From: Micromonospora tarapacensis
GTDB taxonomy: Bacteria > Actinomycetota > Actinomycetes > Mycobacteriales > Micromonosporaceae
NCBI RefSeq assembly: GCF_019697375.1
Contig: NZ_JAHCDI010000003.1
Coordinates: 620,001 to 684,000 of the forward strand
Direction: 5' to 3'
DNA: 64,000 bases
Part shown: in pieces, positions 26,770 to 32,124 of the stretch
Layout of the letters: every line of letters begins with the position of its first letter
Position numbering within the stretch: position 1 is the stretch's first letter
The notes under the pieces: model-generated
The model's input: only the letters and a program-made list of their open reading frames with translations
What the model was told of the DNA's origin: nothing
Database searches by the model: none
Program-made: the position numbers and the translations under genes

Positions 26770-26806
26770 CCGGGGCGTCGGCCGTCACCAGCGGCCGGCG
26801 CCCCGG
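26770..26806. terminator. Bidirectional hairpin between dppF and chorismate mutase
   Basis: CCGGGGCGTCGGCCG pairs with CGGCCGGCGCCCCGG with one mismatch around a 7-base loop. It serves the plus-strand ABC operon and the convergent chorismate mutase gene. The position, just past the expected mutase stop at 26814, supports the corrected end of that gene. Confidence 0.75.
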
Positions 26807-26813
26807 TCCTCGC

Positions 26814-27193
26814 TCAGAGGGGCCGCGGCCGGCCCGCAGCAGCAGCAGCGCGAGTTGCGTGCCGTCGGCACCGAGGGCCGATCGGAACCGCTCCAGGATC
26901 TCCTGCTCGCGGGAGAGCACGAGTCGGGTTCCGCCCGAGGCCATCCGGGTCGCGCCGACCTCCTGGGACAGTTCGGCCCGTTCCTGCCACAACTCGACGA
27001 GCGCTCGGTCGATCTCGTCGATCCGTACCCGGATCTCGGCGATCCGGGCGGCGGCGCCGGGCTCGTGGGTGCCCGCCACCGGCCTGCCCGGCTCGGGTCC
27101 GGATCGACCGGCGGGGCCCGCGCCGTCGGTCGCGCCGTTCGGGGTCGCGCCGGAACCGGTCGGGGCTCCGCTCTGCTCCATCACGTCTGTCAT
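26814..27193 (-). CDS. Chorismate mutase, AroQ-delta type, C-terminus affected by an apparent frameshift
   Basis: Chorismate mutase converts chorismate to prephenate, the branch point to phenylalanine and tyrosine. After a disordered 45-residue N-terminus, the all-helical domain reads I-D-E-I-D-R-A-L-V-E-L, then R-M-A-S-G-G-T-R-L-V-L-S-R-E and L-A-L-L-L-L-R-A-G-R-G-P. This matches the small AroQ-delta enzymes of Mycobacterium, which need DAHP synthase bound at their C-terminus for full activity. As given, the frame misses its stop and runs on to 26423, antisense to dppF. One extra base in the G run 26819-26822 would give the expected ending G-R-G-P-L and a stop at 26814. An attenuator-like leader lies upstream. 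Confidence 0.85.
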
Positions 27194-27243
27194 CTTCGGG
27201 TACCTCTCACGGTCTGGTGCCCAGTGCCCGGATCCCGGGACGA

Positions 27244-27279
27244 CGAAAGCCCCGGGCTCCAAGGAGCCCGGGGCTTTCG
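27244..27279 (-). terminator. 17-bp attenuator hairpin in the chorismate mutase leader
   Basis: CGAAAGCCCCGGGCTCC and its exact reverse complement flank a 2-base loop. It lies 14 bases after the leader-peptide stop and 50 bases before the chorismate mutase start, on the leader transcript. Its first arm includes CCGGGCTCC (27263-27271), which can instead pair with GGAGTCCGG inside the leader-peptide coding region (27313-27321), nine pairs including one G-U. Confidence 0.8.
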
Positions 27280-27292
27280 CAGGTCTAGTCGA

Positions 27293-27358
27293 TCAGGCGC
27301 GACCTACGGCTGCCGGACTCCCGGTGCCGTAGTAAAAGTAGAAGCGCTGGTCGAACAC
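27293..27358 (-). CDS. Phe/Tyr-rich leader peptide of chorismate mutase
   Basis: A 21-codon frame starts at GTG 27358 and stops with TGA at 27293. Codons 6-10 are F-Y-F-Y-Y, and codon 2 is also F, so 6 of 21 codons are for the two end products of the chorismate mutase branch. The codons just after the aromatic run form a hairpin (CTACGGC at 27326-27332 on the minus strand with GCCGTAG at 27304-27310). The start codon is 7 bases after a -10 box, so the message should be leaderless. A terminator hairpin and then the chorismate mutase gene follow. Codon run, position and alternative pairing agree with transcription attenuation; I have not seen this specific leader described. Confidence 0.8.
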   Translation of the reverse strand: MFDQRFYFYYGTGSPAAVGRA

Positions 27359-27365
27359 GCCGTCG

Positions 27366-27395
27366 AGTATGCCGCCCGACCGGGCTGGCGCGCAA
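27366..27395 (-). promoter_or_regulatory. Promoter of the chorismate mutase leader
   Basis: On the minus strand TTGCGC (27390-27395) and CATACT (27366-27371) are separated by 18 bases and resemble a principal-sigma promoter. The -10 box ends 7 bases before the GTG of the leader peptide. Confidence 0.55.
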
Positions 27396-27465: not shown

Positions 27466-29858
27466 ATGCATCCTCTCTTCGACATCCCCGCGTCCCCGCC
27501 CGCGCCTGCCCGGGCACAGCCGCCGCGCCGGACGGGACCCGGCCACCTCGACCCGACGCAGCTGGTGGAGGGACTCAACGGCCCCCAGCGGGACGCCGTC
27601 ACCCACGCCGGCTCACCGCTGCTGATCGTCGCCGGCGCCGGTTCCGGGAAGACCCGGGTGCTGACCCACCGGATCGCGTACCTGCTCGCCGCGCGGGACG
27701 TGCATCCCGGCGAGATCATCGCGATCACCTTCACCAACAAGGCGGCCGGTGAGATGAAGGAGCGGGTGACCGCACTGGTCGGCCCGCGCGCCCGGTTGAT
27801 GTGGGTCTCCACCTTCCATTCCGCCTGCGTCCGGATCCTGCGCGCCGAGCACGAGCACGCCGGCCTCAAGTCCACCTTCTCGATCTACGACGCCGACGAC
27901 TCCCGCCGGCTGATGCAGCTGGTCGCCCGCGAGCTCGACCTGGATCCGAAGCGCTACCCGGCGCGTGGCCTGGCCGCCCAGGTCTCCAACCTGAAGAACG
28001 AGCTGGTGGATCCGGAGGACTTCGCCGTGCGGGCCAGCGGGCCCAACGAGCGTGCCCTCGCCGAGGCCTACACGCTCTACCAGCGCCGGCTGCGCGAGGC
28101 ACATGCGCTGGACTTCGATGACCTGATCATGGCGACGGTGCACCTGTTCCAGTCGCACCCGCACGTCGCGGAGAGCTACCGCCGCCGGTTCCGGCACGTC
28201 CTGGTCGACGAATACCAGGACACGAACCACGCACAGTACGTCCTGATCAAGGAGCTGGTCTCCGGCACCGCCGGCCTCGACCCGGCGGAGCTGTGCGTCG
28301 TCGGAGACGCGGACCAGTCGATCTACGCCTTCCGTGGCGCGACGATCCGCAACATCCTGGAGTTCGAGCGCGACTTCAGCGACGCCCGCACCATCCTGCT
28401 GGAGCAGAACTACCGCTCCACCCAGACCATCCTGAACGCCGCGAACGCGGTGATCGACCGCAACACGTCCCGCAAACCGAAGCGGCTGTGGAGCGATGCG
28501 GGCACGGGTGAGCCGATCGTCGCCTACGTCGCCGACACCGAGCACGCCGAGGCGGACTGGGTGGCCCGGGAGATCGACCGACTGGTCGACGCCGGTGAGA
28601 CCCGTCCGGGGGACGTGGCGGTCTTCTACCGCACCAACGCGCAGTCCCGGGTCTTCGAGGAGGTGTTCATCCGGGTCGGTCTGCCCTACAAGGTCGTCGG
28701 CGGAGTGCGCTTCTACGAGCGCAAGGAGGTCCGTGACGCGTTGGCCTACCTGCGTTCGGTGGTCAACGACGACGACACGGTCAGCCTCCGCCGGATCCTC
28801 AACACGCCGCGCCGGGGCATCGGCGACCGCGCCGAGGCGTGCGTGGAGGCGTTGGCCAACCGGGACCGGGTCTCCTTCGGTGCCGCGCTGCGCCGCGCGA
28901 AGGACGCGCCGGGCATCTCGGCCCGGGCGACCAACGGCATCGCCGACTTCGTCGCGCTGCTCGACTCCGCCCGCGAGTTGGCCGTCGACGGCACCCCGGA
29001 GGAGGTACTGGAGGCGGTGCTGACCCGCTCGGGATACCTGACCGAGCTGGAGGAGAGCCTCGACCCGCAGGACGCCGGTCGGGTCGACAACCTCCAGGAA
29101 CTGGTCAGCGTCGCCCGTGAGTACACCGAGCGGATCGAGGTCGCCGGCGCGGAGGGGGAGCGGGCCACCCTGGCCGGCTTCCTGGAGCAGGTCGCGCTGG
29201 TCGCCGACGCCGACCAGGTCCCCACCGACGACCCCGAGCACCAGGGCGTGGTCACCCTGATGACCCTGCACACCGCCAAGGGCCTGGAGTTCCCGGTGGT
29301 GTTCCTGACCGGCCTGGAGGACGGCGTCTTCCCACACCTGCGCTCACTCGGTGACACCAGGGAGCTGGAGGAGGAGCGGCGGTTGGCGTACGTCGGCATC
29401 ACCCGGGCCCGGCAGCGGCTCTACCTCTCCCGGGCGGTGACCCGCTCTGCCTGGGGTCAGCCGTCCTACAATCCGCCGTCGCGGTTCGTCGAGGAGCTGC
29501 CGCCCGAGCTGGTCCGCTGGGAGCGGACCGAGGGGTCGTACACCTCCTGGGGCGGTGGTGGTGGCGTCGGCGGTCGCGCGGAGCGGATGGCCGACGGTCG
29601 CGGCACCTTCGCGGGGGGCACCCTCGGGCCGTGCAACTGGCGCGGAAGCTCGGCGTGGACGGCAGCCGGCTGGCCACCGCCAGCGAGCTGCCGCAGGGGC
29701 CGAAGGTCACCGCCGGGGACCGGGTCAACCACCAGCGGTACGGGCTGGGCCGGGTGGTGGCCGTCGAGGGGCACGGCCCCGGCGCCCGGGCGCAGATCGA
29801 CTTCGGCGAACAGACGCTCTGGCTGGTGCTGCGGCACGCCCCGATCGAGAAGCTCTGA
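27466..29858 (+). CDS. pcrA: DNA helicase PcrA/UvrD, frameshifted near the 3' end
   Basis: This superfamily 1A 3'-5' helicase acts in nucleotide-excision repair and plasmid or stalled-fork processing. Helicase motifs are in order: A-G-A-G-S-G-K-T (Walker A), F-T-N-K-A-A, D-E-Y-Q-D-T-N (motif II), G-D-A-D-Q-S-I-Y (III), Q-N-Y-R-S (IV), T-L-H-T-A-K-G-L-E-F (V), Y-V-G-I-T-R-A (VI). The frame then leaves the expected one at the G run 29613-29618. Adding one G makes it continue A-V-Q-L-A-R-K-L-G-V-D to the C-terminal Tudor-like domain (V-N-H-Q-R-Y-G-L-G-R-V-V) and stop at 29858. As given, it would read on to 30111. Corrected length is about 797 residues. Confidence 0.9.
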
Positions 29859-29911: not shown

Positions 29912-30688
29912 TCAGCAGGCCACGTCGAGGCCCCGGGCGCGCAGGAACGGCGCCGGGTCGATCTGGTTCCACAGCTGGCCCTGATGCACCTCGAAGTGCA
30001 GGTGCGGGCCTGTGGAGTCGCCGGTGGATCCCTCCAGGCCGATGGTCTGCCCGGTGCCGACCTTCTCGCCCACGCTCACCCTGGCCGTGCTCAGGTGGGC
30101 GTAATGGGTGAGGTAGCCGTTGCCGTGGTCGACGAAGACGGAGATGCCATAGCCGTCGCCGACGTCGCCGGCCTTGGTCACGGTGCCGGCGAACGCGGCG
30201 CGGACGGGGGTGCCGGCGGGCTGCGCGAAGTCGATGCCGGCGTGCAGGGTGCCCCACCGGGGCCCGTAGCAGGAGGTGACGGCGGCTCCTGCCATCGGGA
30301 TGACCCAGGACGATTTCGGCGCCGCGCTCCTGGTCGATTTCGGCGCCGCCCTGGTGGCCTTCGTGGCCTTCGGGCTGGGCTTCGCGGTCGGGCTCGCGTC
30401 GGCGGTCGGGCTCGTCGACGCGGCGGGCGTCGGGCTGTCCGGGGTGACCGGGCCGCGGGCCGAGCGGTCGGCCCGGTCGGCGGCCTCGGTCCGGGCCTGC
30501 GCGTCAAGGGCGACCAGGCCCGGGGCCGGGCTTTCCTCCCGGGTAACGGCGACGACCGCACCGACGCCGAGGCCGACCAGAGCGACCGCACCGACCATCA
30601 GGAAGCGGCCGCGCCAGCCGAGGCGGCGCCGGTGCCGGGCGGGGGTGTGGGGGATCTTGCGGGTCGGGGTCGAGCTGTCGTCCTGCAC
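29912..30688 (-). CDS. M23 family peptidoglycan endopeptidase, membrane-anchored, copy 1
   Basis: The 258-residue protein has a basic N-terminus, one membrane helix at about residues 28-50, a low-complexity Ala/Pro/Thr/Lys linker, and a LysM-less M23 domain at the C-terminus. Zinc ligands are visible as H-A-G-I-D and H-L-H-F-E. It should cut peptidoglycan cross-links or act as a wall-binding activator outside the cell. GTG 30688 was chosen because GGTGAGG lies 6 bases upstream; the frame is open to 30946 but that part is not conserved in character. It lies behind a second M23 gene, separated by a terminator. Confidence 0.85.
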   Translation of the reverse strand: MQDDSSTPTRKIPHTPARHRRRLGWRGRFLMVGAVALVGLGVGAVVAVTREESPAPGLVALDAQARTEAADRADRSARGPVTPDSPTPAASTSPTADASPTAKPSPKATKATRAAPKSTRSAAPKSSWVIPMAGAAVTSCYGPRWGTLHAGIDFAQPAGTPVRAAFAGTVTKAGDVGDGYGISVFVDHGNGYLTHYAHLSTARVSVGEKVGTGQTIGLEGSTGDSTGPHLHFEVHQGQLWNQIDPAPFLRARGLDVAC

Positions 30689-30915
30689 GGCGGACCTCAC
30701 CGGAATCGAGTGGCACGTGACCTCGAAATCCTGGTGTCGGTCCGGGTGGCCACGGGTATCGGGGGTTCGGTGGCGCACCGACGGCAGCCGGTGCGCTGTC
30801 CAGGTCTGTCCGCTGCTGTCGCCGATGCCCGGCGCGGCCGGCCGAGGGCGCTGTGACGTCGGGCACAGTCTGCGTCGTGAGCTGGGACACTTCGCGGGCC
30901 ACCGGGAAACGTGAA

Positions 30916-30943
30916 ACCGCCCGGATCGATCGATCCGGGCGGT
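30916..30943. terminator. Perfect 28-base palindrome between the two M23 genes
   Basis: ACCGCCCGGATCGA is followed immediately by its exact reverse complement. It lies 20 bases after the stop of the second M23 gene on the minus strand, so it is a terminator for that gene. The 270 bases from here to the first M23 gene hold no other gene I can support. Confidence 0.75.
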
Positions 30944-30962
30944 CAACGGGCGTTACGGCGCG

Positions 30963-31676
30963 TCAGGACTCCGCTACCTCGCTGTAGATTGCCTCGACTT
31001 GCAGCTTGATGTCCACTCCGCGCTCCTGCAGCCACGGCACCGGGTCTAGCGGCTTGCCCTTGACATGGATCTCCAGGTGCAGGTGAGGGCCGTAGGAGTG
31101 GCCGGTGTTGCCGACCAGGCCGAGCTGGTCGCCGGCCTTGACCTGCTGGCCCTCCCGGACGCTGACCGCGGAGGAGTGGCCGTAGATCGCCTCGCTGCCG
31201 TCGGCGTGCTGGACGATGACCGCGTTGCCGTAGCCGCCGAACCAGCCGGCCTTCGTGACCGTGCCCTCGTGGATCGCGACGTACGGCGTGCCCTCGGGGG
31301 TGACCAGGTCGATGCCGGTGTGCAGCTTGCCCCAGCGCATCCCGTAGGGGGAGTTGAAGTCGTAGCCGTGCAGCGGCAGCAACCAGGTGCCGGAGTCGGT
31401 CGCGCTCTCCGGGCCGCTGCGGCTGTCGCGGGAGGCCCGCTCCGCGGCATCGGCCCGCTCGGCAGCGCCCTGGTTGCTGATCGACGCCTGCTTGAGCTCG
31501 TCGAGCACCGTGGGGCTGACGTCCTTGGCGTCCGGCATCGCGCTGGCGCCCAGGGCGACCACACCGGCACCGACGAAGGCGGTGGTGACGACCGCGGCGT
31601 ACCGGCTGCGCGGGGGGGTGGGTACGCGACGGCGGCCGCGATATCGATCGGGCTCAGACGACAGGCGCTGGCGCAC
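30963..31676 (-). CDS. M23 family peptidoglycan endopeptidase, membrane-anchored, copy 2
   Basis: The 237-residue protein has an Arg-rich start, a membrane helix at about residues 28-45, a coiled-coil-like charged stretch (E-R-A-D-A-A-E-R-A), and an M23 domain with H-T-G-I-D and H-L-H-L-E-I-H as zinc-binding marks and G-N-T-G-H-S-Y-G-P before the last motif. GTG 31676 is decided by GGAGG six bases upstream. It is related to the neighbouring M23 gene but has a different linker, so the pair is an older duplication. Confidence 0.87.
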   Translation of the reverse strand: MRQRLSSEPDRYRGRRRVPTPPRSRYAAVVTTAFVGAGVVALGASAMPDAKDVSPTVLDELKQASISNQGAAERADAAERASRDSRSGPESATDSGTWLLPLHGYDFNSPYGMRWGKLHTGIDLVTPEGTPYVAIHEGTVTKAGWFGGYGNAVIVQHADGSEAIYGHSSAVSVREGQQVKAGDQLGLVGNTGHSYGPHLHLEIHVKGKPLDPVPWLQERGVDIKLQVEAIYSEVAES

Positions 31677-31790
31677 GCACACCCTCCGTTGTCGGGGTTC
31701 CGATGCGGTCGGCCGTCGTCCGGATCTGGTGACCCGTCCGCCGGCTGGTCGCGTCGTCACCCGTCCGTAGACCTGATGACAACCGTGGAC

Positions 31791-31819
31791 ACGGTAGCCA
31801 ACCGTTGGTCGTGTCACAA
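31791..31819 (-). promoter_or_regulatory. Promoter of M23 copy 2 with a leader of about 110 bases
   Basis: On the minus strand TTGTGA (31814-31819) and TACCGT (31791-31796) have the ideal 17-base spacing. Transcription would start near 31784, leaving a leader of about 108 bases before GTG 31676. The leader contains the inverted pair GGTGAC/GTCACC. The rest of the 480-base gap to the B12 gene (about 31820-32110) shows no gene I can support. Confidence 0.5.
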
Positions 31820-32124
31820 GCCGGAGCGCCGAATTGGCCGCAACGATCTGTCCCTTTCCGTCCGTGATTGTCATGGCTCATGCCGGTGGCGGGCTGCCCT
31901 CGTTATCGTCCGTTCGTCGCACACCGTGACCGATCGGCGGAGTCGTCCCGCTTGACGCGACCCTGGGCGGACAGTGTCGCTACGTGAGGTTGTGGTGGCG
32001 TCGTGTTCCTTGGCCCCGGCCGCGCCGCCGGACCTGCCGCCCGCCCGGCCCGGTCGCCGCGTCGGCGGCCGTCTGTGCGGCCCCCGTTCCCCGGCCCCGG
32101 CCGGGCGGGTTACCGTTCGTCCAG

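Follow-up and report, generated by a model that had tools for sequence, protein, structure and literature searches.

A candidate Phe/Tyr-codon attenuator ahead of the chorismate mutase gene of Micromonospora tarapacensis and of other actinomycetes

The chorismate mutase gene in a 64,000-nucleotide stretch of Micromonospora tarapacensis DNA (hereafter the window) is very probably governed by a ribosome-mediated transcription attenuator, a known mechanism. Since an aromatic leader and a switchable hairpin recur together across many actinomycetes, control of the mutase by stalling at Phe/Tyr codons is probable; from the sequence we infer the transcript start, translation of the leader, termination and the responses to Phe and to Tyr. 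The initial annotation of the window had described a promoter, a GTG start, a 21-codon peptide rich in Phe and Tyr, its stop codon, a hairpin and the mutase start, and all of these were found at the same coordinates (Table 1). Specifically, the peptide reads V F D Q R, then F Y F Y Y at codons 6–10, then G T G S P A A V G R A up to the stop codon at 27295–27293. Among frames of 9–50 codons on both strands of the 64-kb window, a single start codon out of 1,300, namely that of the leader, opened a frame with at least five F/Y in seven codons. The mutase scored 100.3 bits against NF005894 (cut-off 73) and 67.6 bits against TIGR01808 (cut-off 52.15), and is presumably of the AroQ-delta type.

Table 1. 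Features of the putative attenuator and of the mutase gene in the window, in 5' to 3' order of the minus strand.
Feature	Position	Strand	Basis or remark
-35 box TTGCGC	27390..27395	-	18-nt spacer to -10 box
-10 box CATACT	27366..27371	-	7 nt ahead of GTG
Leader ORF VFDQRFYFYYGTGSPAAVGRA and stop	27293..27358	-	GTG start 27358; putative (leaderless) transcript start at 27358
Control codons Phe6-Tyr7-Phe8-Tyr9-Tyr10	27329..27343	-	read from sequence
Segment 1 CUACGGC, 5' arm of 1:2 hairpin	27326..27332	-	fold and pair counts
Segment 2 GGAGUCCGG, outer antiterminator 5' arm	27313..27321	-	fold, swap test, pair counts
GCCGUAG, 3' arm of 1:2 hairpin	27304..27310	-	fold and pair counts
Inner antiterminator 5' arm CGUAGGUC, codons 17–20	27301..27308	-	fold and pair counts
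Inner antiterminator 3' arm GACCUGCG, past stop codon	27278..27285	-	fold and pair counts
Terminator-like hairpin 3:4	27244..27279	-	-36.3 kcal/mol; stem starts 12 nt past leader stop
Segment 3 CCGGGCUCC, common to antiterminator and terminator	27263..27271	-	fold, swap test, pair counts
AroQ-delta (presumed) chorismate mutase, matched part	26819..27193	-	ATG 27193; frame open as far as 26423

Closer examination of the mutase gene revealed that its last codons diverge from those of relatives, a feature that was not in the initial annotation. In the window (26800–26850, minus strand) the mutase end reads GRGPSERGP, as against GRGPL and a stop codon in 11/11 relatives with a comparable end (that of L002 was not comparable), and the altered C-terminal frame may be a real change or an assembly indel. 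A frame break also occurs near the 3' end of a divergent pcrA helicase gene (27466–29858, plus strand), for which TIGR01073 profile positions 1–642 were matched in one frame and positions 676–725 in another (29631–29858). As both neighbouring genes, mutase and pcrA, carry frame breaks, assembly indel errors are plausible. Two adjoining genes at 29912–31874 (minus strand) matched peptidoglycan hydrolase models, which we take to be of the M23 type, with scores under the cut-offs.

The leader RNA of the window can adopt two alternative folds; by RNAfold the 1:2 hairpin comes to -18.6 kcal/mol, the antiterminator to -31.7 kcal/mol and the terminator to -36.3 kcal/mol. The antiterminator consists of two helices, an outer one pairing GGAGUCCGG with CCGGGCUCC and an inner one, added here to the initial annotation, in which CGUAGGUC pairs with GACCUGCG on the far side of the leader stop. 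The terminator-like hairpin comprises 17 nt that are perfectly complementary around TT, folded by RNAfold into a 4-nt loop closed by 17 pairs including one G-U, and is followed by a short U tract, UUUC only. The two folds that had been proposed, 1:2 or a nine-base 2:3 pairing, together with the putative 3:4 terminator, are present and mutually exclusive, as judged from folds, pair counts and a swap test that was weak in f2, another family of the class.

Ribosome stalling was simulated by masking the window RNA, with the downstream edge of the ribosome assumed to lie 13 nt past the start of the A-site codon. For a transcript ending at segment 3, the 2:3 pairing was complete with the A site at codon 2, 6, 7, 8 or 9, partial at Tyr10 and lost at Gly11, Gly13 and the stop (the codons tried); as 2:3 is intact at codons 6–9, the aromatic run is so placed that a stall there yields the ON structure. 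With a ribosome at the leader stop, only 3:4 could form in silico. Once segment 4 was transcribed, the minimum-energy fold was the terminator at every ribosome position tried, and the transcript up to segment 3 preferred 2:3 also with no ribosome on it. Because the terminator is the full-length minimum and ribosome-free RNA favours 2:3, the choice of the antiterminator must be kinetic, and a kinetic choice of fold is familiar from other attenuators. The proposal that a stall on early Phe/Tyr codons frees the antiterminator was reproduced in silico as long as the RNA ended at segment 3, but not in the equilibrium fold at full length.

In the proposed mechanism, transcription would begin at the GTG and the ribosome would translate the 21-codon leader, which has no Shine-Dalgarno site, from a leaderless start. 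When charged Phe- or Tyr-tRNA is scarce, the ribosome would stall at codons 6–9 and cover segment 1, so that segment 2 is free to join segment 3 as a long antiterminator spanning the leader stop and the polymerase would proceed into the mutase gene. With ample Phe and Tyr, a ribosome reaching the stop would sit over both segment 1 and segment 2, leaving the 3:4 terminator to form. If the leader is not translated, the 1:2 hairpin could take segment 2 first, and the terminator would form again.

The distribution of the leader was analyzed in Micromonosporaceae, the family of the window (f1), in other families of the class (f2, f3, f13, f15, f17, f18 and f32, with f18 appearing to correspond to Streptomyces and f2 to Mycobacteriaceae) and in a Pseudonocardiaceae-like set, most members of which we take by their names to be Pseudonocardiaceae. 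The aromatic frame that the initial annotation had expected upstream of related genes recurs in 59/59 f1 loci, 79/80 Pseudonocardiaceae-like loci and 59/70 loci from other families, the start codon in the f1 and the 70 other loci having been picked by F/Y content and -10 score, a choice biased towards this pattern. The mutase itself was present in 61/61 genomes of the genus and 149/150 of the family (201 genomes searched in all), and the 59 f1 loci comprised the window and the best-scoring loci from these genomes. In every one CATACT lies 6 or 7 nt ahead of the GTG, some TTG hexamer lies 16–19 nt before the -10 box in 57/59, and TTGCGC lies at exactly 18 nt in 28/59. The Pseudonocardiaceae-like loci, the best 80 of at least 397 candidates, have a -10-like hexamer 6–8 nt before the start, with L200 as the one exception.

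In the class-wide search, 75 of 246 genomes were above the mutase cut-off; 72 of them lay outside f1 and 70 loci were examined (G276 and G419 were left out). An F/Y-rich leader accompanied by a -10-like hexamer was seen in 22/22 loci of f18, 19/21 of f17, 13/21 of f2 and 2/3 of f15, and in the one locus from each of f3, f13 and f32, the f3 locus (L104) being the same Actinokineospora locus as L130 by a 100% protein match. Among these positives L070 has no early stop and the motif is weaker in L109, L115 and L123. The 11 misses comprise two loci that have the RNA core without a short frame (L099 and L108), one at a contig edge (L122) and eight with neither, L067, L068, L073, L074, L076, L090, L097 and L098, all from f2 (8/21 of the f2 loci examined). 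Homologous upstream regions without the aromatic frame or the hairpin, which the initial annotation had named as evidence against its reading, did occur in f2, both as these eight loci and as L063 and L070, where the hairpin is missing; we read them as lineage losses. L067 and L068 have a common stretch, GGTCTGTTTCACGGTGAA, ahead of the mutase, possibly a different control element. Second mutase copies had no leader in 10/10 upstream regions fetched (picked from the copies listed); in one of them, L244, a three-aromatic stretch lies inside a longer frame with no -10 box, and another, L250, scores under the mutase cut-off.

Some features of the frame would be in keeping with a translated leader. 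Every gap within the leader frame in the f1 alignment is of 3 nt, and F+Y counts in frames 0/+1/+2 were 289/63/21 in f1, 67/3/25 in f18, 291/122/92 in the Pseudonocardiaceae-like set, 51/20/17 in f2 and 38/25/3 in f17, an in-frame excess that is support and not proof as the frames were chosen partly by F/Y content. Trp was counted 0 times in f1, once in f18, three times in f2, 0 times in f17 and once in the Pseudonocardiaceae-like set. The position of the -10 box, 6–7 nt before the start codon throughout f1, would fit a leaderless start. A conserved, structured RNA ahead of a biosynthetic gene could also be a ligand-binding riboswitch or a T-box in which the reading frame is incidental, but the frame, its start, its stop and the 3-nt gaps are all conserved and the window gave no Rfam match at gathering score, so that this model is extremely improbable. 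At E<=1, three sub-threshold Rfam matches were obtained over 11 loci, including isrL (20.7 bits, gathering score 35) over the L001 leader, and no match to leader peptides was found in NCBIfam (six peptides) or Pfam (four peptides).

Pairing between the arms was assessed in alignments of f1 sequences (58 distinct of 59 in A1 and 52 distinct in A7), in A3, which omits L070, and in A8, a set of 65 sequences picked for diversity from f1 (28 of 52) and the Pseudonocardiaceae-like set (37 of 63). In A8 the outer 2:3 helix was paired in 96.4% of cells (slid controls 15–67%) with a covariation score of 0.206 against 0.117 when shuffled (0/500 shuffles) and 32 doubly changed cells against a shuffled mean of 12.7 (0/500). 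For the seven pairs of the basal 1:2 helix the corresponding values were 96.5% (slid controls 37–48%), 0.331 against 0.206 (0/500) and 34 against 13.6 (0/500). The number of doubly changed pairs was ordinary in A8, being matched by 346/500 shuffles for 2:3 and 175/500 for 1:2. The covarying pairs that the initial annotation had sought in both structures are therefore seen across two families for 1:2 and outer 2:3, in an alignment whose main changes separate f1 from the Pseudonocardiaceae-like set, so that kinship can inflate the covariation. Within the 52 distinct f1 sequences, the share of paired cells was 92.0% for the antiterminator (slid controls 20–48%) and 99.3% for 1:2, and antiterminator covariation was weak (165/500 shuffles matched the double-change pairs and 69/500 the score).

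In the swap test, native combinations of arm 2 and arm 3 beat cross-family chimeras in 93% of comparisons for f1, 96% for f18, 90% for f17 and 100% for the single f3 locus; the match was weak in f2 (69%), of which 11 of 13 loci were used, and the test included no loci from f32, f15 or f13. Median z values against shuffled arm 3 were -3.50 for f1, -2.22 for f18, -0.89 for f2, -3.25 for f17 and -4.25 for f3. These arms bear on whether the conserved peptide might itself arrest the ribosome and so sense Phe, Tyr or another metabolite, as the strong conservation of its C-terminus within families (SPAAVGRA, or TPAPVIA in the Pseudonocardiaceae-like set) could imply. The C-terminal codons, however, form part of helices with RNA further downstream, and the C-terminus varies between families (SPAAVGRA, PTGCHGRAA, TPAPVIA, SAVPVV) with little beyond F-Y-G in common, which makes an arrest peptide very unlikely.

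The output stage of the putative attenuator is more variable than its aromatic core. A strong hairpin lies 9–25 nt past the leader stop with a median of -31.7 kcal/mol in f1 (59 loci) and -38.1 kcal/mol in f18 (22 loci), values being taken from these two families only since the finder used puts the hairpin in the wrong place for several loci of f2 and f17. In 10 of the f1 and f18 loci that were inspected the stem has 13–17 bp, and in f1 it often has flanking A and U runs. The f17 leaders are longer and variable, mostly with a single F-Y pair and with no TTG -35 box, and no clear U-tract hairpin was found among the f17 loci examined; in f2, L063 and L070 keep the aromatic frame (in L070 with no early stop) in the absence of the hairpin. 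These variants suggest a changing output stage. Together with the short U tract of the window, they could also be taken to mean that Rho, RNA decay or access to the mutase start codon is the main route and intrinsic termination a minor one, but in view of the strong hairpins of f1 and f18 this is very unlikely, and a Rho-only model was rejected on this evidence, as were the arrest-peptide and riboswitch/T-box models on theirs. In f17 loci L094–L119, the presumed ribosome-binding site GAAAGG seems to be masked by a stem of the type GGGCCU...AGGCCC or GGACCU...AGGUCC, which, judged by eye, looks compensated between loci.

With attenuation as the preferred reading, one ancestral Phe/Tyr sensor, made up of a promoter at fixed spacing, a leaderless ORF and an F-Y-G core with the 1:2 stem starting at its Tyr codon, might tentatively be dated to before several actinomycete orders diverged, and would control the housekeeping chorismate mutase only. 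Segments 2 and 3 would then have been rewritten together, and in f17 the intrinsic terminator would have been swapped for a different output, for example a hidden ribosome-binding site; this scenario is possible and somewhat doubtful. A search of the genome of the window strain with the element model R1 gave one strong match (76.9 bits), the runner-up (18 bits) being that hairpin read on the other strand. In 196 genomes of the class, R1 gave 22 matches in 21 genomes, 11 of them ahead of the mutase by coordinates, at a sensitivity outside f1 that was low enough for many leader-bearing f18 and f2 loci to be missed, so that diverged copies before other genes are possible. The other 11 matches (23–32 bits) had no aromatic leader and were hence treated as chance.

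Related attenuators have been described for other genes. In Corynebacterium glutamicum, the available portions of two reports (PMC11802643, PMC4046766) describe the aroR leader of aroF, with Phe-Tyr-Phe, at which stalling raises transcription when Phe is short, and the former gives Tyr as without effect. Like the leader in the window, aroR is an actinobacterial Phe-Tyr leader ahead of an aromatic gene, but it controls the DAHP synthase gene aroF whereas the window leader precedes a NF005894/TIGR01808 chorismate mutase, the two being set apart here by their descriptions. Given that Tyr is ineffective at C. glutamicum aroF in that account, the response of the window leader to Tyr remains a putative one. 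In Escherichia coli, by the part of PMC11802643 available, the Phe-codon leader pheL controls chorismate mutase activity through pheA; this system is enterobacterial, with a bifunctional chorismate mutase-prephenate dehydratase, and that of the window is actinobacterial, yet in both a Phe-codon leader precedes chorismate mutase activity. Leaderless leader ORFs acting as attenuators, as proposed here, are described in the available text for leuL, trpL and ilvL of S. lividans (PMC8079986) and reportedly occur as mycobacterial cysteine leaders (Canestrari 2020), with other amino acids and genes, and none of the eight S. lividans leaders named in the accessible part of PMC8079986 is for chorismate mutase, Phe or Tyr. 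Seliverstov 2005 (PMC1262725), in the portion available, reports no conserved RNA structures before phenylalanine/tyrosine operons in Actinobacteria. No such leader for a chorismate mutase gene was found in the open-access papers searched, and the leader peptide strings FFYGYR, FTYGNR, FYYGTGS and FTYGTG were not found in them.

Chorismate mutase commits chorismate to the Phe and Tyr branches rather than to Trp, and a leader common to several actinomycete families would place this branch point under tRNA-charging control. The loci also form a natural series whose antiterminators and terminators seem to have evolved in step. The actinomycete groups concerned include many antibiotic producers, and in these the leader would be a short, mutable target for raising the supply of Phe and Tyr.
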